Part shown: piece by piece, positions 9,086 to 41,620 of the stretch | Position numbering within the stretch: the first letter of the stretch is position 1 | Layout: each line of letters opens with the position of its first letter | Virus record (IMG/VR): IMGVR_UViG_3300000101_000007 | Span: 56,356-107,186 of that record | Direction: 5' to 3' (one strand) | DNA: 50,831 nucleotides | Source of the DNA: a virus | Notes under the pieces: generated by a model | Databases searched by the model: none | What the model was told of the DNA's origin: nothing | What the model saw: only the letters and a program-made list of their open reading frames with translations | Program-made: the position numbers and the translations under genes

Positions 9086-9159
9086 TGGCAGGCGAACAAG
9101 GAATCGAACCTCAAGCTACGGTTTTGGAGACCGCCGTGTTACCACTACACCATTCACCC
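9086..9159 (-). tRNA. tRNA-Trp (CCA anticodon), encoded 3' CCA
   Basis: The minus strand folds as a cloverleaf: acceptor GGGTGAA/TTCGCCT, D stem GTGT/ACAC, anticodon stem GCGGT/ACCGT with loop CTCCAAA (anticodon CCA), T stem TGAGG/CCTTG with loop TTCGATT, discriminator G and templated CCA at 9086-9088. It lies directly between the tmRNA and the Nfu-like gene. Confidence 0.93.
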
Positions 9160-9177
9160 TTTGTCAATAAAAGTGCA

Positions 9178-9495
9178 ACTTTTCTGTTGCCAGGTAAGTT
9201 GCCAACCCCGTTACCTAGTTAACTAGGCTGCAAGAGCAAAATTATCGTTTGCGTCTATAAAGTTGCTTGATTTACGGTCATCGCCTACCGGTAACTCCAC
9301 GTTCTCTCATACATCAGTCGATCCTAGTTCGCCCCCATCATAAACACACTACTTGCAGTATCTTCCTCTGCGTAACCTCAGCATTAGAGGTAACTTAGTT
9401 TATTCGTAGCCTTGCCACTTCTAGTTCAAAGTAGTGTGCTTATGGTGGAGGCGCGGGGTACCGCCCCCCGGTCCTGTCTGTCGTTGATTGGCTTC
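9178..9495 (-). ncRNA. ssrA: Permuted two-piece tmRNA, tag ANDNFALAA
   Basis: Transcript order is acceptor piece, intervening loop, coding piece, as in alphaproteobacterial permuted ssrA. The acceptor piece (to 9443) ends with T stem CGGGG/CCCCG, strand CGCCTCC, A and templated CCA. The coding piece begins at 9336 with GGGGGCG, which pairs fully with CGCCTCC. A GCA resume codon at 9250-9252 opens the tag frame encoding ANDNFALAA, with stop TAG at 9223-9225. The intervening segment is flanked by 19-base arms that pair with G.U wobbles and extend the acceptor stem. The T loop (GGCGGTA) is atypical. The outer ends are approximate. Confidence 0.92.
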
Positions 9496-9510
9496 AACGT
9501 TACATGTATA

Positions 9511-9539
9511 TTTATACTACCATTGTAACAGTTTGTCAA
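9511..9539 (-). promoter_or_regulatory. Sigma-70 promoter for tmRNA-tRNA-nfu unit
   Basis: Minus strand TTGACA (9534-9539), 17-base spacer, TATAAA (9511-9516). The same -10 is also a perfect TATAAATA late-type motif (9509-9516), so the unit could be read early and late. Confidence 0.85.
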
Positions 9540-9552
9540 CCTTTTTTTTAAA

Positions 9553-9639
9553 TTAATTTCTACCCATGTGTTTAGGGCCAGTATCTTGCGATAACCAATC
9601 TAAAAGTTTAAACCAACGTTTGCTGATACGGATCAACAT
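9553..9639 (-). CDS. Small ORF overlapping the end of the Rieske-type gene
   Basis: 28 aa starting at an ATG inside the 3' end of the oxygenase gene, reading MLIRISKRWFKLLDWLSQDT then GPKHMGRN. Composition is protein-like (basic and aromatic, amphipathic), and the frame ends just before the tmRNA promoter. No homology can be claimed. It could be chance. Confidence 0.4.
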   Translation of the reverse strand: MLIRISKRWFKLLDWLSQDTGPKHMGRN

Positions 9640-10678
9640 CTAAGTACTTGCCCCATTCGGTATAGTAATGACGCATACCTACTTCATCATGTATAGTACC
9701 GTTCTCATGACGTCCGTGTAGTATGTTTCTACGTTCAGTACCCGGAGCCATCGAAACACCTTGTCCAGTAACACCTAGCAAGTCTTCGTGCAAGTTACGT
9801 CCAAACGGTCCCCATATAGTGTTGTGATGATCTATACGTTGCTTACGTTCTTCAGGTGTGTCTTTTAACAAGCCGTATCCTCTAAACTCTATAAGCACAC
9901 TGTTAGGACCTAGTGGAGTAACACTATCACTACGATAAGCACTTCCACGTAGGTTAAAGTTAAAGCCTGGAAACAAGTCTACCATGTACCATTGGTTGGG
10001 CGGCAGGGTAGGAAAACTTAATGCTTCTCTATCTCCTGCGCCTTCATATTCACCATAGTTTACTGTGAAACTGCTTACGTTTACATGTCCGTTATCGAAC
10101 GCAATGTTCTTACGTGCAAAGTATTCATCATTAAATCCTGTCACACGATTAAAGTAATGCATAAAGTCGTGATAGAATTCACTGTTAGTGTCGTGCCATA
10201 GTTTGTAGTTGGTTGGAATGATTGCTTTATGATAGTGAAATACTTCTAATTCTTCAGTATCAATAGCACCGGCAATACAATCAAATGCACCTGCGGTCCA
10301 TTCTTCTACATTCATCTTTGGATTAGGATCTAGTGTTACCCATACCATACCCCCGTGCTTAACCTCACAGTATAGTTCAGGCTCACTGGTTACAATAGGT
10401 GCTTTTAGTTTGCCAGAAACTTGATATTGCGAATCATATATTCTATAAGCCTTGACTCTATCACCTGCATTTACTATAAGGATATTTTGAAACGCAATTT
10501 GCGATGTTCGATAATCGCCTTCGTTTCTTATTTCACTCTTGTGGATAACAGGTACCCATACTTTAGCAAAGATATTTTTAATCTCTTGTTCGTATATTTC
10601 TTGACTAGAATATATTTCGCTACTTACTGCTTCTACTGGTGGTACTGACAACCAACTCTTGTGGTTACGTGGTGGCAT
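9608..10678 (-). CDS. Rieske-type ring-hydroxylating oxygenase alpha subunit lacking the Rieske ligands
   Basis: 356 aa from the ATG at 10678, which has GGAG 8 bases upstream. The C-terminal catalytic domain is typical: NYKLWHDTNSEFYHDFMHYF carries putative iron His ligands, then HEDLLGVTGQG for the Asp ligand, and the family tail DEVGMRHYYTEWGKY. In the N-terminal domain, where CxH and CxxH should bind the 2Fe-2S cluster, sequence passes straight from VKAYRIYDSQYQ to VSGKLKAPIV; the cluster hairpins are absent. His spacing at the iron site is HxxxH instead of the usual HxxxxH. Substrate unknown. No reductase or ferredoxin gene is adjacent. Confidence 0.75.
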   Translation of the reverse strand: MPPRNHKSWLSVPPVEAVSSEIYSSQEIYEQEIKNIFAKVWVPVIHKSEIRNEGDYRTSQIAFQNILIVNAGDRVKAYRIYDSQYQVSGKLKAPIVTSEPELYCEVKHGGMVWVTLDPNPKMNVEEWTAGAFDCIAGAIDTEELEVFHYHKAIIPTNYKLWHDTNSEFYHDFMHYFNRVTGFNDEYFARKNIAFDNGHVNVSSFTVNYGEYEGAGDREALSFPTLPPNQWYMVDLFPGFNFNLRGSAYRSDSVTPLGPNSVLIEFRGYGLLKDTPEERKQRIDHHNTIWGPFGRNLHEDLLGVTGQGVSMAPGTERRNILHGRHENGTIHDEVGMRHYYTEWGKYLDVDPYQQTLV

Positions 10679-10785
10679 AAACATTTCTCCATTTATATAT
10701 AATAACATATACACACTGTTATTTAATATATAATAGCATATAAAATGAAGAAAGTCTAATTGATTGTTCCTATGAGGTAATAGTC

Positions 10786-28299: not shown

Positions 28300-29118
28300 A
28301 TGAACACATTGTATACTGAATGGTTTGCACAACTTGCGCAAATTATAGAAGATAACATCAATGAAGTAGAAGCTAGATTCACACCTAAAGATCCTATTAA
28401 AATGGAAGAAGGTGGACATTCAAGCAGAGAGGGATGGACTCAAACACACAAAGTTATACGTGGAAATGTATTTGAAAAAGGTACAGTAAATTACTCGTGT
28501 GTTACTGGAGAGTTTGATCCAAGATTCGCAAAAGAGATTCCAGGTACAACTGACGAGAACAGAGAGTACTATGCTACAGGTATAAGTGTAGTATTGCACC
28601 CTACTAATCCTTGGGTACCAGCAATGCACTTCAACACAAGATACCTTAAGACACATGACAAAGAATGGTTTGGTGGTGGTATGGATCTAACTCCTTGCTT
28701 AGATGACGAGCAGTTTAAAGTAAAGTATCACCAAGAGCTTAAAAAGGTTTGTAGTGAGTATGATGCAACTTGGTACGATAAGTTTAGCAAAGCATGTGAT
28801 GAATACTTTTACTTGCCACACAGAAAAGAAACAAGAGGTATTGGAGGTTTGTTCTTCGAATATCATTCGCCAGAGGACATGGACTTTAAATTTGTAGAAC
28901 GTATGGGCATTAAGTTTGCAGATATAATGAGAACAACTGCAATTAACTACATGAACAACAACTACACAGACGAACATAAAAATATACAAAAGATCAAACG
29001 TGGACGATATGTAGAGTTTAACTTGTTATACGATCGTGGAACTAAGTTTGGTTTTAAAACAGGTGGTAACATGGAAGCAATCCTAATGAGCTTACCGCCA
29101 GATGTGAGTTGGCCGTGA
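28300..29118 (+). CDS. hemF: Oxygen-dependent coproporphyrinogen III oxidase, C-terminally short
   Basis: 272 aa. Diagnostic blocks are WFGGGMDLTPCLDDEQ, HRKETRGIGGLFFEYHSPED and GRYVEFNLLYDRGTKFGFKT followed by GGNMEAILMSLPP. It converts coproporphyrinogen III to protoporphyrinogen IX with O2. The family normally runs about 35 residues past the SLPP motif; this one stops at PPDVSWP. It is first in a tight operon hemF-peptide-hemC-hemE-hemB. There is no Shine-Dalgarno before the ATG, and a TTAAATAC motif sits just upstream. Confidence 0.95.
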   Translation: MNTLYTEWFAQLAQIIEDNINEVEARFTPKDPIKMEEGGHSSREGWTQTHKVIRGNVFEKGTVNYSCVTGEFDPRFAKEIPGTTDENREYYATGISVVLHPTNPWVPAMHFNTRYLKTHDKEWFGGGMDLTPCLDDEQFKVKYHQELKKVCSEYDATWYDKFSKACDEYFYLPHRKETRGIGGLFFEYHSPEDMDFKFVERMGIKFADIMRTTAINYMNNNYTDEHKNIQKIKRGRYVEFNLLYDRGTKFGFKTGGNMEAILMSLPPDVSWP

Positions 29119-29192
29119 ACATTGGGATAGGTGCATTAACTGCTGCTATCTTAGCATTCATTGCTTGGGTCATAAGGAAGGTTAGAAAATGA
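29115..29192 (+). CDS. 25-aa membrane peptide inside heme operon
   Basis: GTG start overlapping the hemF stop (GTGA) and a stop overlapping the hemC start (ATGA), so the frame fits the gap exactly. After four residues it is one hydrophobic helix (GALTAAILAFIAWVI) followed by a basic end (RKVRK), the positive-inside topology of a single-pass inner-membrane peptide. A good Shine-Dalgarno for hemC (AAGGAAGG) lies inside it. It might tether heme enzymes to the membrane or couple translation. Confidence 0.6.
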   Translation: MNIGIGALTAAILAFIAWVIRKVRK

Positions 29193-30010
29193 AGATAGGC
29201 GTAAGAGGAAGTAAACTAGCATTACAGTATGCAAGTAGAGCAGCGGCTCTAATAAGCGACCCAGAGATTGTTACAATAAAAACAGAAGCAGAAATTAATC
29301 CAGACACGCCTATATTGGAAATGGGCGGCAAGGGTGTATTTTGTAAAGCCATTGAGCAGAAGTTATTAGATAACGAAATTGATATTGCTGTTCACAGTTT
29401 AAAAGATTTACCAAGAGACTCAGATGATGTTCTTGAGATATCAGCAGTACTAACTCGTAGCGATCCTAGAGACTGCGTAATAGGCGATCCTAACAAACCC
29501 GGCGCCAAGATAGGAACAGGCAGTCCACGCAGAACTGCACAACTAAAAAAGTTATATCCAGATGCAGAGATAGTTTCTATTAGAGGAAATATTGACACAC
29601 GTATTTCTAAAGTAGAAAGTGGACAGTATGATGCTATTGTACTTGCTGTTGCAGGACTAGAAGCACTAGGATTAGAAAACAAGATAACAAAGATATTTAA
29701 CTTTGACGAAATGCTGCCAGCAGTTGGGCAAGGTGTTATTGCACTACAAACAAGAAAGAAAAGTTCCGCAAGTTATTTGTTAAGCAGTTCATCTGATGCA
29801 GACACATATAAAGGAGCAATGGCTGAACGCAAGATGCTTGAAGTTATAGATGGCGACTGCCATACTGCTGTTGGTTGTATATCTAGTGTTGTTGGAGACT
29901 GTCTAATGATTAGAGCCTACAACTTTGAAACAGATAAGTACAGTGAAGTAATAGGTAAGAAAGAAAACTATCTAGAACTTGGTGAACAACTAGGAACGAA
30001 ACTTATATGA
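29189..30010 (+). CDS. hemC: Hydroxymethylbilane synthase (porphobilinogen deaminase)
   Basis: 273 aa, compared with about 310 in bacteria. MKIGVRGSKLALQYASRA, KGVFCKAIEQKLLDNEIDIA followed by VHSLKDLP, IGTGSPRRTAQLKKLYPDAE and IRGNIDTRISKVESGQYDAI are all conserved. The dipyrromethane cofactor Cys is present in VIDGDCHTAVGC. The C-terminal third domain is shortened. It polymerises four porphobilinogens into hydroxymethylbilane. It overlaps hemE by ATGA. Confidence 0.96.
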   Translation: MKIGVRGSKLALQYASRAAALISDPEIVTIKTEAEINPDTPILEMGGKGVFCKAIEQKLLDNEIDIAVHSLKDLPRDSDDVLEISAVLTRSDPRDCVIGDPNKPGAKIGTGSPRRTAQLKKLYPDAEIVSIRGNIDTRISKVESGQYDAIVLAVAGLEALGLENKITKIFNFDEMLPAVGQGVIALQTRKKSSASYLLSSSSDADTYKGAMAERKMLEVIDGDCHTAVGCISSVVGDCLMIRAYNFETDKYSEVIGKKENYLELGEQLGTKLI

Positions 30011-30984
30011 ATGAAAAATTTAAAAATGCCTGCGATAGGGTAGAACAGTCTTGTCCTCCGATTTGGATGATGCGACAGGCTGGAAGATACCAAGCACCCT
30101 ATATGGAGATGAAAGAGAAGTTTACCTTTGAACAAATGTGTAAGTTACCTAGGGTAGCTGCCGATGTAGCAATGCTACCAATTGATCAATTTGATTTTGA
30201 TATTGCAATACTGTTTAGCGACATACTATTTCCTATTGAGGGACTAGGAGTTCCTTTAAAGTTTGCACCAGGGCCACAGTTTGAATGGTACATCAACGAA
30301 GACAACTATAAAGATCACAAAGACGTTTCACGTGCAGTAGAACACATGCAGTTTCAAAAGGCTGCTGTTTCTTCAACTAGAGAACTGTTAAGCAAAAAGA
30401 AAAGCCTAATAGGATTTGTAGGCGGCCCGTGGACACTGTTAAACTATGCTACAGGTAAAAAGCCTAATATGGATTTAAAATGGAAGGCAGCATACATGGA
30501 AGAAGTTATTGTTCCTGTGCTATCACGTAACATACAACTGCAACTAGAAGCAGGTGCAGAGAAAGTTATGATACTTGATAGTGGTGTAGCCAACATGAGT
30601 GAGTCTTTTTTTAAAACACATTACGTTAATCTATTACAACCACTAAAACACGCTGATACAGGTTACTACACACAACATCTAAATCACAAGTGTTTGCCTA
30701 CACTGTATAGAATGGGCTGGGCAGGATTGGGTATTGATAGTACAGTTGATATACATAGAACATTTAAGAAATATCAAGAAGGATTTATACAAGGCAACTT
30801 CGATGAGAAGTTAATGATGACTCCTGAACTATACTTAAAGAAAGAAATATCAGAATGGCTTGACAGTATGGAGCGTATTGATAGAACTGGTTGGATATGT
30901 GGGCTAGGACATGGCATACATAAAGAAACACCAGAGGACAATGTAAAACTATTTGTAGACATGGTTAGGGAAAGATTCGAATGA
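30007..30984 (+). CDS. hemE: Uroporphyrinogen decarboxylase
   Basis: 325 aa. The signature PPIWMMRQAGRYQAPYMEMK is followed by FDFDIAILFSDILFPIEGLG with the catalytic Asp, and GFVGGPWTLLNYATG. It is a full (beta/alpha)8 enzyme that decarboxylates uroporphyrinogen III to coproporphyrinogen III. AGGA sits 10-12 bases before the ATG. ATGA overlaps join it to hemC and hemB. Confidence 0.96.
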   Translation: MNEKFKNACDRVEQSCPPIWMMRQAGRYQAPYMEMKEKFTFEQMCKLPRVAADVAMLPIDQFDFDIAILFSDILFPIEGLGVPLKFAPGPQFEWYINEDNYKDHKDVSRAVEHMQFQKAAVSSTRELLSKKKSLIGFVGGPWTLLNYATGKKPNMDLKWKAAYMEEVIVPVLSRNIQLQLEAGAEKVMILDSGVANMSESFFKTHYVNLLQPLKHADTGYYTQHLNHKCLPTLYRMGWAGLGIDSTVDIHRTFKKYQEGFIQGNFDEKLMMTPELYLKKEISEWLDSMERIDRTGWICGLGHGIHKETPEDNVKLFVDMVRERFE

Positions 30985-31829
30985 GGCTGATACAACCTTA
31001 TTTTATTAATAATCAAAATAACGGCGATGACTGGTTACATTCATCTAAGCAATGTGTTCTTGGCAACGATAATCATCCTTGGTCAGTCAAAGGCGCAGTA
31101 GATACTATTGGTAGAGATATCATGTTAGGTGTCAAAGACATCTTAATATTTGTTATGCCAGACAAGACGGAATCCCCAAATTGGGAGTTAAACAAACGTG
31201 TTGTTAGCGAAATCAAAGCAGCACACGGAGATAAAGTAAACTTACATGTTGATATATGTTTGTGTTCTACTACGCTAGATGGGCATTGTTGCTATCCTGA
31301 GGACATGAATAAAACGTACGATCAACTACTTCAACAAGCAACTGTTGTACACGAAGCAGGAGCAGATGTATTAGCACCCAGTGACTGTCAAGACAACACT
31401 GTGATAGTACTTAAAGAAAACTTAAAAGCAAAAGTAATGAGCTATTCAACAAAGTTTAGGTCAGCATTCTATGATGGGTTTAGACAAACTATTGGTGTTG
31501 AAAAAGGAATACACAGAGGTTATCAATTAGATGTAACTGATAGAGAACTTGCAATTTGTCGTAGTCAAAAATATCACAGAAACGGTGCTGACATGTTAAT
31601 GGTAAAGCCTGGCATGACTAGCATTGATCTTATTATTCCTATTAAAGAAGCAACAGGATATTCTGTTCCTGTAGGTGTTTATCAAACAAGTGGCGAGTAC
31701 ATTGGTTTACAACGTAATGGTTGGATGGTTCCTGAACTGTTAAAAGAAACACATGATGTTTTTAAACGTGCTGGTGCTTCTTATATGATTACTTACGGTG
31801 CTAGGGAATTATTTAAACAAAAAGACTAG
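30981..31829 (+). CDS. hemB: Porphobilinogen synthase (zinc-type), N-terminally short
   Basis: 282 aa against about 325. Both Schiff-base lysines are present: MSYSTKFRSAFYDGF and MLMVKPGMTSIDLI. The metal loop VDICLCSTTLDGHCC has three Cys, so it is of the Zn2+-dependent type; many alphaproteobacteria use the Asp-rich Mg2+ type. The N-terminal arm that builds the octamer (the RPRR-containing region) is missing, so its oligomeric state may differ. It condenses two 5-aminolevulinates. It is last in the operon and overlaps a convergent gene by 4 bases. Confidence 0.95.
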   Translation: MRLIQPYFINNQNNGDDWLHSSKQCVLGNDNHPWSVKGAVDTIGRDIMLGVKDILIFVMPDKTESPNWELNKRVVSEIKAAHGDKVNLHVDICLCSTTLDGHCCYPEDMNKTYDQLLQQATVVHEAGADVLAPSDCQDNTVIVLKENLKAKVMSYSTKFRSAFYDGFRQTIGVEKGIHRGYQLDVTDRELAICRSQKYHRNGADMLMVKPGMTSIDLIIPIKEATGYSVPVGVYQTSGEYIGLQRNGWMVPELLKETHDVFKRAGASYMITYGARELFKQKD

Positions 31830-39366: not shown

Positions 39367-39540
39367 ATGTACAACATAATCAAATTCTTTAAAGATTGGG
39401 CTTATGAATACAATAGCCTAATGGACGAATTGAGAAAAGACGGATGGTATTGCTGCCATCATTCAATGGGAACACTATTTTATCATGATAAACAAAGAAC
39501 CAATAAACAAACTACTAAAAAACCTAAAAGACAGCGGTAA
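39367..39540 (+). CDS. 57-aa protein overlapping the hemA start
   Basis: Starts [20 protein letters not shown] and contains WYCCHHSMG, a Cys-Cys-His-His cluster that could bind metal or haem, then a lysine-rich tail. It overlaps hemA by 56 bases in another frame. The late-type motif at 39355-39362 points to this ATG first, so hemA may depend on its translation. Not recognised as a known family. Confidence 0.6.
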
Positions 39541-40690
39541 CTACAGGGTATTCAATGACATTCTAAGAGAAAGGGGCGAGTTCCCTAGAGCTATCTGGTA
39601 TGGACCATATAATATTAAAAACATTACTAATTGGTGCAGCAATGATTACTTGGGCATGGGACAGAACAAAGTTGTTATAGACGCAATGCATACTGCCCTA
39701 GAACAAACAGGATCAGGTTCAGGAGGCACACGTAACATAGGTGGCACAAGCCACTATCACGTTGCGCTGGAGCATGAACTTAGTACATTACATAACAAAG
39801 CAAAGTCCTTGCTGTTTACATCTGCATATGTTGCAAACGAATGGACACTTATTTCATTAAAGAAAATATTCCCTAACATTGTATTTTTAAGCGACAGTAA
39901 GAATCATGCTTCATTGATACAAGGTATTATACATAGTAAAGCAGAAAAACAAGTGTGGCAACACAACGACATGGATCAACTAGAAGAACTATGTGCTAAT
40001 GCTGTACTTGCTAATCAAACTCCTTGTATTGTATTTGAAAGTGTTTACTCTATGGACGGAGACATTTCTCCAATGGAACAGATATGTAATATTGCAGACA
40101 AGTATAAGGCAATAACATACATTGACGAAGTACATGCTGTTGGCCTTTATGGCGAACACGGAGGCGGCTGGACGGAGAAACTAGGACTACAAAACCGTAT
40201 TGATATAATCAATGGCACACTTGGAAAGGCCTTTGGAGTTCAAGGTGGATACATTGCTGCCGATGCAGACGTTGTTGACGCTATTCGTTCAGTTGCTTCT
40301 GGTTTTATCTTTACGACTAGTATGAGTCCAGTTTCATGTGCAGGCGCAATGGCTGCAATCAAATATTTAAAAGACCACAACGAAGTTAGAGATAGCCATC
40401 AAAAACAAGCGAACAAACTTAAAGAAAGATTAACAGCAAATGGAATACAAGTAATGGAATGTTCAACTACACACATTGTTCCTGTGCTTGTAGGAGATGC
40501 TAAGAAATGTAAGTCGATGAGTGATATGCTTATTGACGAATATGATATCTATGTACAGCCAATTAACTATCCAACAGTAGAAGAAGGTACAGAACGTTTA
40601 AGGTTTGCACCTACTCCGTATCATGATGATAAAATGATTGAGGATTTAGTTATTGCTCTAAAGGCTGTGTTTGCTCGTCACCAGGATTAA
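39485..40690 (+). CDS. hemA: 5-Aminolevulinate synthase (ALAS)
   Basis: 401 aa, full length. Diagnostic blocks: [63 protein letters not shown] with the PLP lysine, [10 protein letters not shown] and [20 protein letters not shown]. It condenses glycine and succinyl-CoA to 5-aminolevulinate, the C4 route typical of alphaproteobacteria and mitochondria. It starts the pathway whose later steps are at 28.3-31.8 kb. No clear Shine-Dalgarno. The 3' end overlaps the convergent cupin gene by 41 bases. Confidence 0.97.
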
Positions 40691-41033
40691 TTCTAAACTG
40701 ATCTTCTTCATAGTCTGGTGTTCCTGATTCAAAGATAATTGAATTATGATCTAACGATTCTAATTGATGTGGAGTCATTTCAGCAATGTCAATAGTGTTG
40801 CCTTCTTTAATAACTTGTTCTCTGCTTTGCCCTGTCTTAATATCAATAAATGTAATCTTAAACTTACCTGAATTAACAAACCAACTCTTACGTCTAACCT
40901 TGTGTAACATCATTGCAGTTTTCTTATTAGGATGTTCGAACACTAATAATTTGCCTGCATAAGATTCATTAGATGCCCAGCTGAGCTCCATGCCCCAGGC
41001 TGTTTGTTTACTACCTTGTGAAACTATCTTCAT
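40650..41033 (-). CDS. Cupin-domain protein
   Basis: 127 aa, a single cupin of the mannose-6-phosphate isomerase type: [40 protein letters not shown] and [20 protein letters not shown], with a degenerate metal site. Comparable phage proteins may bind sugars. It overlaps clpP by ATGA and the 3' end of hemA by 41 bases. Confidence 0.8.
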
Positions 41034-41620
41034 GGACGCTTATCAATAATTTGATCAACCAACCCATAGTCTACTGCTTCTTGGGCAGTCATAAAGTTAT
41101 CACGCTCCATGTCGTTAGTTAGTTCATCGAATGTTTTGCCTGCACTGTTATGTTTTTCGTAGATACCTGTAAGCTCTTTCTTAATTTTTATAATTTCTTC
41201 TACTTGGATTTGCATGTCTGTTGCTTGTCCTCTAGCACCGCCACTTGGTTGATGGATCATGTGCCTTGCGTTTGGTAACATATAACGTTTACCTTCTGCA
41301 CCTGATTGTGCAAGTAGACTGCCCATGCTACACGCTTGGCCTGTAACGTATGTTGCAATGCTTGGCTTAATAAACTGCATTGTGTCATAGATACTCATGC
41401 CGGCAGTTACAACACCGCCTGGACTATTAATAAACAATGAGATATCTTTATCTGAATCTTCTGACTCTAAGAATAACAACTGTGCAACAATAAGGTTTGC
41501 ACTTACATCTTCAACAGGACCATTGAGCATTATTACCCTGTCCTTTAATAATCTACTGTAGATATCATAAGCTCGTTCGCCCTTGCTTGTCGATTCAACT
41601 ACCATTGGTACTAATGCCAT
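41030..41620 (-). CDS. clpP: ClpP protease subunit
   Basis: 196 aa, normal length. [20 protein letters not shown] holds the nucleophile Ser98, [18 protein letters not shown] holds His123, and [19 protein letters not shown] holds Asp174. It forms the proteolytic barrel with host ClpX/ClpA; no ATPase subunit is in the window. A phage ClpP may redirect host proteolysis, process virion proteins, or act on ssrA-tagged proteins made by the phage tmRNA, whose tag ends in LAA. Confidence 0.95.

Follow-up and report, generated by a model that had tools for sequence, protein, structure and literature searches.

Does the phage DNA analyzed here carry a working tmRNA in two pieces, and what sets it apart from the two-piece tmRNAs already described? 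The window, by which we mean the whole stretch of 50,831 nt (positions 56,356 to 107,186 of IMG/VR record IMGVR_UViG_3300000101_000007), was the subject of an earlier note that placed a circularly permuted tmRNA with the tag ANDNFALAA at 9178 to 9495. There is a tmRNA at that place, but it extends from about 9503 to 9172 and lies on the minus strand, which the note had not stated (Table 1). As argued below, this tmRNA is real and probably working. What is new is its short, clade-specific tag and, above all, a spacer that is swapped among relatives and often codes for protein.

ARAGORN called a permuted tmRNA with the tag ANDNFALAA* at 9132-9537 (minus), and the 3' end of this call overruns into a separate tRNA-Trp. 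With cmscan, RF01849 (alpha_tmRNA) matched at 9554-9172 (minus) with 125.9 bits (gathering threshold, 50; E = 4.7e-34), the alignment spanning the whole model (1-355), and RF04321 (tmRNA_permuted) matched at 9503-9223 (minus) with 117.7 bits (gathering threshold, 47). The covariance search that had been proposed as a check was thus passed by a wide margin, and ARAGORN and both Rfam models agree with the permuted order of acceptor and coding pieces that had been read from the letters.

The acceptor piece comes before the coding piece. The pairing of GGGGGCG with CGCCTCC, claimed from the outset, gives a seven-pair acceptor stem that includes G3-U70 and is followed by A73 and an encoded CCA. The G3-U70 pair is an identity element for alanyl-tRNA synthetase (AlaRS), and it was kept in every intact relative that we parsed. 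The extended stem said to flank the spacer (intervening sequence [IVS]) was also recovered, with 16 further pairs, a minimum free energy of −53.5 kcal/mol, and a z score of −7.3; at the ends of the spacer, 12 of 12 closing pairs are formed. The tag frame runs from the resume codon to a stop and has a hydrophobic AA end. Judged by its sequence, the window RNA is a genuine tmRNA gene of the two-piece, alphaproteobacterial type.

Table 1. Positions of the tmRNA, its parts, and associated genes (window numbering unless another record or locus is named)
Feature	Position	Strand	Evidence or remark
Permuted alpha-type tmRNA, complete	~9503-9172	-	ARAGORN and Rfam cmscan
Sigma70-like promoter, TTGACA-N17-TATAAA(TA)	9509..9539	-	Directly 5' of acceptor piece
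Acceptor piece (T arm, acceptor 3' strand CGCCUCC, discriminator A, encoded CCA)	9443..9503	-	RF04321 and RF01849 alignments
Acceptor 3' strand, CGCCTCC	9453-9447	-	CGCCTCC-A-CCA occupies 9453-9443
IVS (spacer), 106 nt	9337..9442	-	Closed by 16-bp extension of acceptor stem
Coding piece (GGGGGCG strand, D-like region, resume codon and tag, 3' pseudoknot region)	9172..9336	-	cmscan; predicted fold of piece, z = −5.9
Acceptor 5' strand, GGGGGCG	9336-9330	-	Start of coding piece
Tag frame, GCA AAC GAT AAT TTT GCT CTT GCA GCC TAG (ANDNFALAA*)	9223..9252	-	ARAGORN
tRNA-Trp (CCA)	9086..9159	-	ARAGORN and cmscan, 58.4 bits; 12 nt 3' of tmRNA, same strand
Ring-hydroxylating oxygenase, MsmA-like	9608..10714	-	67.6% identity to MsmA of Puniceispirillum phage HMO-2011
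ClpP	41030..41620	-	PF00574, E = 1.2e-78; NF001368, 309 bits
ClpS adaptor	54543-54872 of record G000 (L006:16543-16872), outside window	-	PF02617, 85.8 bits
Heme-pathway genes	28300-31829 and 39485-40690	+	
Permuted tmRNAs of Rhodobacter phages	L002 2463-2876; L003 2463-2877		MW677525.1; OP009285.1
Nested-gene loci	L022, L044, L049, L122, L137, L254, L360, L363, L408, L412, and >100 others		

The tRNA-Trp gene stands in the same place next to the tmRNA in six related loci (L010, L012, L014, L021, L022, and L058), and the two RNAs probably share one transcript. Matches to TTGACA-N16-18-TATAA were enriched in the window (7 versus 0.25 expected), and a sigma70-like promoter also lies 5' of the tmRNA in L010, L012, L014, L016, L021, L022, L058, L046, and L033. 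A T4-late-type promoter, TATAAATA, occurred 5 times in the window versus 4.9 expected. Because this sequence was not enriched, only the sigma70-type reading of the promoter was retained.

The tag had been described as short for the alphaproteobacterial type, with an LAA end, and both descriptions hold, the latter by the ARAGORN call. Against the RF01849 consensus, the cmscan alignment has a 9-nt (three-codon) gap in the tag. Most viral tags of the alpha type are 13 to 14 residues long: among the IMG/VR matches listed, ARAGORN gave tags of this length for 56 of 74 permuted tmRNAs and tags of 9 residues for 4 of the 74. Within the ANDNFALAA/ANENFALAA clade, the length and frame of the tag are constant. 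A permuted tmRNA with a 29-residue tag, ANDNALSNVTFVDFSAPVTAVNEDFALAA, far above the usual length, occurs at L119 2885-3278 and L139 3776-4169; a tmRNA with this tag shares its contig with an MsmA-like gene.

We scanned viral sequences and 84,980 species genomes with a degenerate pattern for ANDNFA(L/F)AA followed by a stop. The 18 viral stretches that matched were permuted wherever they were checked (10 called with the tag by ARAGORN and 8 contigs by RF04321, in overlapping sets). The species genomes gave 93 matching places, none of which carries the title Alphaproteobacteria. ARAGORN called 83 of them with the tag, all as one-piece tmRNAs (two of the 83 reading ANDNFAFAA); the remaining 10 were without an ARAGORN call. 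Among the sequences scanned, every permuted gene seen with the tag was viral. The one-piece tmRNAs of Clostridium, Gemmatimonadota, Cloacimonadota, Spirochaetota, and others encode a tag peptide identical to that of the window, but they have the standard gene order and belong to unrelated lineages. The peptide thus seems to have evolved independently in the one-piece genes, by convergence on a short tag.

The earlier note had also held that permuted tmRNAs are rarer still in phages than phage tmRNAs as such, and this did not stand. In 18,146 phage genomes, 53 two-piece tmRNAs have been reported, 50 of them aquatic, and 17 were found among 47 contigs around phage Melnitz (PMC9004378, 2022). Our pattern scan of IMG/VR for permuted tmRNAs gave at least 120 matches. 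Marine phages thus often carry two-piece tmRNAs, and this kind is already known. As here, methylophage Melnitz, Pelagibacter phage Mosig, and related marine myophages (PMC9004378) have curli genes and a permuted ssrA of the alpha type, directly 3' of an early-type promoter. Compared with Melnitz, as that phage is described in PMC9004378, and with Mosig, the window differs in its 9-residue tag and in the tRNA-Trp directly 3'. Unlike in Melnitz-type phages, Rfam searches of the window detected neither a glutamine riboswitch nor any other regulatory RNA. The ssrA gene of alphaproteobacteria (RF01849, Caulobacter type) has the same parts in the same order and the same G3-U70 pair, but the window tag is three codons below the model consensus and the genome around it is that of a phage.

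When the tmRNA was compared by BLASTN with cultured phages, the matches were mainly to tRNA-Trp, plus three alphaproteobacterial phages. We found unannotated permuted tmRNAs in the cultured Rhodobacter phages RcSimone-Hastad and RcRudolph. These are also alpha-type genes in alphaproteobacterial phages; however, their tag is ANDNVRMDAQALAA and their genomes are unrelated to that of the window. In RcRudolph, an annotated "hypothetical protein" covers the permuted tmRNA.

That the tmRNA is borne by a phage and not by a bacterial contig, as had been claimed, agrees with its surroundings. The window comes from a virus record of 107,186 b that resembles marine T4-like phages; its nrdA is like those of cyanomyoviruses, and it encodes an exonuclease (phrog_298) and a phage DNA ligase. 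Alongside these T4-like replication genes are the curli genes csgG (E = 1.7e-50) and csgF (E = 7.6e-17), as in pelagimyophages (PMC9004378), a combination that suggests membership in the pelagimyophage/Melnitz-like group. The host is probably a marine alphaproteobacterium.

The same phage encodes ClpP, which the earlier note had recognized and which is a possible protease partner of the tagged proteins. It also encodes the adaptor ClpS; with tmRNA, ClpP, and ClpS in one phage, the rescue and the degradation of stalled proteins may therefore both be under phage control. An Hsp20 gene (L006:16909-17367, minus) adjoins the ClpS gene. SmpB was not found in the 107,186-b record. This record is a fragment, so an SmpB gene could sit in the missing part; with none in the record itself, the tmRNA would have to rely on host SmpB. 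The gene order around the tmRNA is common to other viral contigs, and an MsmA-like gene lies near the tmRNA in many phages, sharing loci with it in L117, L119, L044, L060, L085, and L049. We know of no link between MsmA-like oxygenases and tmRNA function.

Taking these features together, we think it very likely that the window encodes a functional, alphaproteobacterial-type, circularly permuted phage tmRNA; in the literature, we found no test of phage tmRNA function. The sigma70-type promoter would drive one precursor that includes tRNA-Trp. The long hairpin of acceptor piece and spacer would be cut by RNase P at 9336/9337 and by 3' processing at the encoded CCA, and the two resulting pieces would stay joined through base pairing. 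Host AlaRS would charge the tmRNA via G3-U70, and host SmpB would bring it to stalled ribosomes. The sequence A-ANDNFALAA would then be added to the stalled protein, and its LAA end could be read by host ClpX with either host or phage ClpP, the phage enzyme perhaps supplementing that of the host. In this way, ribosomes stalled on broken mRNA would be recovered during infection. Because the shortened tag puts any adaptor-binding part near the LAA end, its dependence on adaptors may be altered.

Other roles are conceivable. As a decoy or modifier, the short-tagged RNA could vie with the tmRNA of the host for SmpB or AlaRS, or it could replace the longer host tag by one that host adaptors of the SspB type read poorly and so change the fate of tagged proteins. 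The permuted form of this tag was not found in cells (84,980 species genomes), the phage supplies its own ClpP and ClpS, and in E. coli the endogenous tmRNA is reportedly inhibited by a phage tmRNA without a tag (DS6A; PMC11915505), all of which would suit such a role. However, a pure decoy would have no need of the complete, in-frame LAA tag that is retained, and tags of the usual 13 to 14 residues occur elsewhere in this phage group. We consider this role improbable. The three codons by which the tag falls under the alpha consensus might also be taken as a sign of decay in a passenger copied from the host, its function lost, but this is much harder to sustain. The mature pieces are nearly unchanged among sister phages although the flanking DNA is only ~87 to 91% identical; the acceptor stem with G3-U70, the promoter, the T arm, and the 3' pseudoknot region are conserved; and the ANDNFALAA/ANENFALAA clade holds its length and frame. 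We give almost no credence to a bacterial contig or a prophage edge with the tmRNA as host integration site, even though tmRNA genes are common integration sites (PMC11915505) and IMG/VR can contain host flanks, for phage genes are found record-wide, the gene order around the tmRNA recurs on other viral contigs, and the permuted tag was found in none of the 84,980 species genomes scanned.

In the functional tmRNA that we favor, the discarded spacer is an exchangeable slot. The acceptor piece of the window is identical (62/62) to those of L021, L022, L010, and L014, and the first 180 bases of its coding piece are identical at 178 positions to those of L021 and L022. Yet the spacers of the window and L022 are unrelated (106 versus 164 nt), and the window spacer is also unrelated to that of L010. 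Conversely, one and the same 45-nt spacer occurs in L010 and L046, whose tmRNAs clearly differ (38/62 and 140/183), and L408 and L409 have a common spacer open reading frame (ORF) inside different tmRNAs. Across 78 non-redundant loci, the spacer ends paired at 10.3 of 12 positions, versus 7.1 (maximum, 7.5) when ends were swapped between loci, and most positions of the closing stem show several Watson-Crick pair types. This excess and this variety together indicate strong covariation of the closing stem. The comparisons indicate free exchange of the spacer against a constant background of the two mature pieces. It would be a neutral insertion site, and it would tolerate inserted genes because it is closed in structure and free in sequence.

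In many relatives, the slot holds conserved small membrane or basic proteins. The window spacer has no nested ORF of 28 codons or more and lacks the combination of a sense ORF and a Shine-Dalgarno sequence that is present in L022, whose ORF matches phrog_16066 (E = 2.6e-5; function unknown). A Shine-Dalgarno-like motif 5' of an ATG-initiated ORF of at least 35 codons was found in 20 of 55 spacers, versus 0.59 expected from dinucleotide shuffles (maximum, 2 in 100), the 55 being the non-redundant spacers of at least 80 nt among the IMG/VR matches listed. This test was restricted to the pattern-scan sample, because the other loci, which were left out, had been chosen by ORF motif or spacer length.

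The nested ORFs run in the sense direction and make up several unrelated families. Family M, at more than 100 loci, has the core WSICAD and one hydrophobic segment; its in-frame dN/dS is 0.23 (70 distinct sequences), versus pN/pS of 1.25 and 1.92 in the other two frames. For families N, S, I, R, K, and J, pN/pS was 0.16 to 0.63 in small sets. One nested family is DUF2061-like (E = 1.8e-4, slightly below the Pfam cutoff); ten nested proteins gave no convincing Pfam family, and families M and N had no match among cultured phages. At the loci checked, Rfam shows the enclosing tmRNAs to be intact. A gp32-like protein, baseplate hub, PhoH, and exonuclease identify several of the contigs as T4-like phages. 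The small genes nested in the spacers of relatives are well supported. At many family M loci, a short upstream ORF appears by eye to overlap the main start codon.

In many loci, the closing stem contains the Shine-Dalgarno sequence in its 5' strand, where AAAGGAGAT pairs with ATCTTTTTT. Of the non-redundant nested ORFs, 22 end within the spacer, whereas 12 have their stop codon past the cut site. When the stop lies beyond the RNase P cut (about one-third of cases), the spacer, once excised, would be a message without a stop codon, and its product could therefore be tagged by the tmRNA of the same transcript. We infer that the nested genes may be expressed and that tagging may feed back on them. 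We suggest, tentatively and with more doubt than confidence, that the spacer of permuted tmRNAs is a standard cargo site for small genes in marine T4-like phages. Their products would be translated from the precursor or from the spacer after its excision, which would couple protein synthesis to RNA maturation. Should the precursor serve as the message, a single transcript would yield both a rescue RNA and a protein, and the output of the protein would depend on RNA cutting.

Nested proteins are easily missed by annotation because they lie inside an RNA gene. We found no report of nested genes in tmRNA spacers in a literature search that covered few subscription papers. The Sinorhizobium "tmRNA sORF" (PMC10117765) was rejected as an example, being the tag region and not the spacer. 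In L045 (1937-2709, minus), a 499-nt spacer holds a gene for a 120-aa membrane protein that resembles ones near the tmRNA in L049 and L137; this tmRNA passes Rfam at 61 to 63 bits.

The record also holds small-molecule genes away from the tmRNA. The window has HemF, HemC, HemE, and HemB in a row, plus a 5-aminolevulinate synthase (ALAS; TIGR01821, 571.7 bits). Viral ALAS is already known (PMC11480375), and deep pelagimyophages are known to carry coproporphyrinogen oxidase and porphobilinogen deaminase (PMC7029224). Positions 1-38000 of record G000 (L004 and L005) encode a long series of radical-SAM-like proteins, with CxxxCxxC motifs, along with further small-molecule genes, and the HemF-HemC-HemE-HemB row is kept in 11 further viral contigs.
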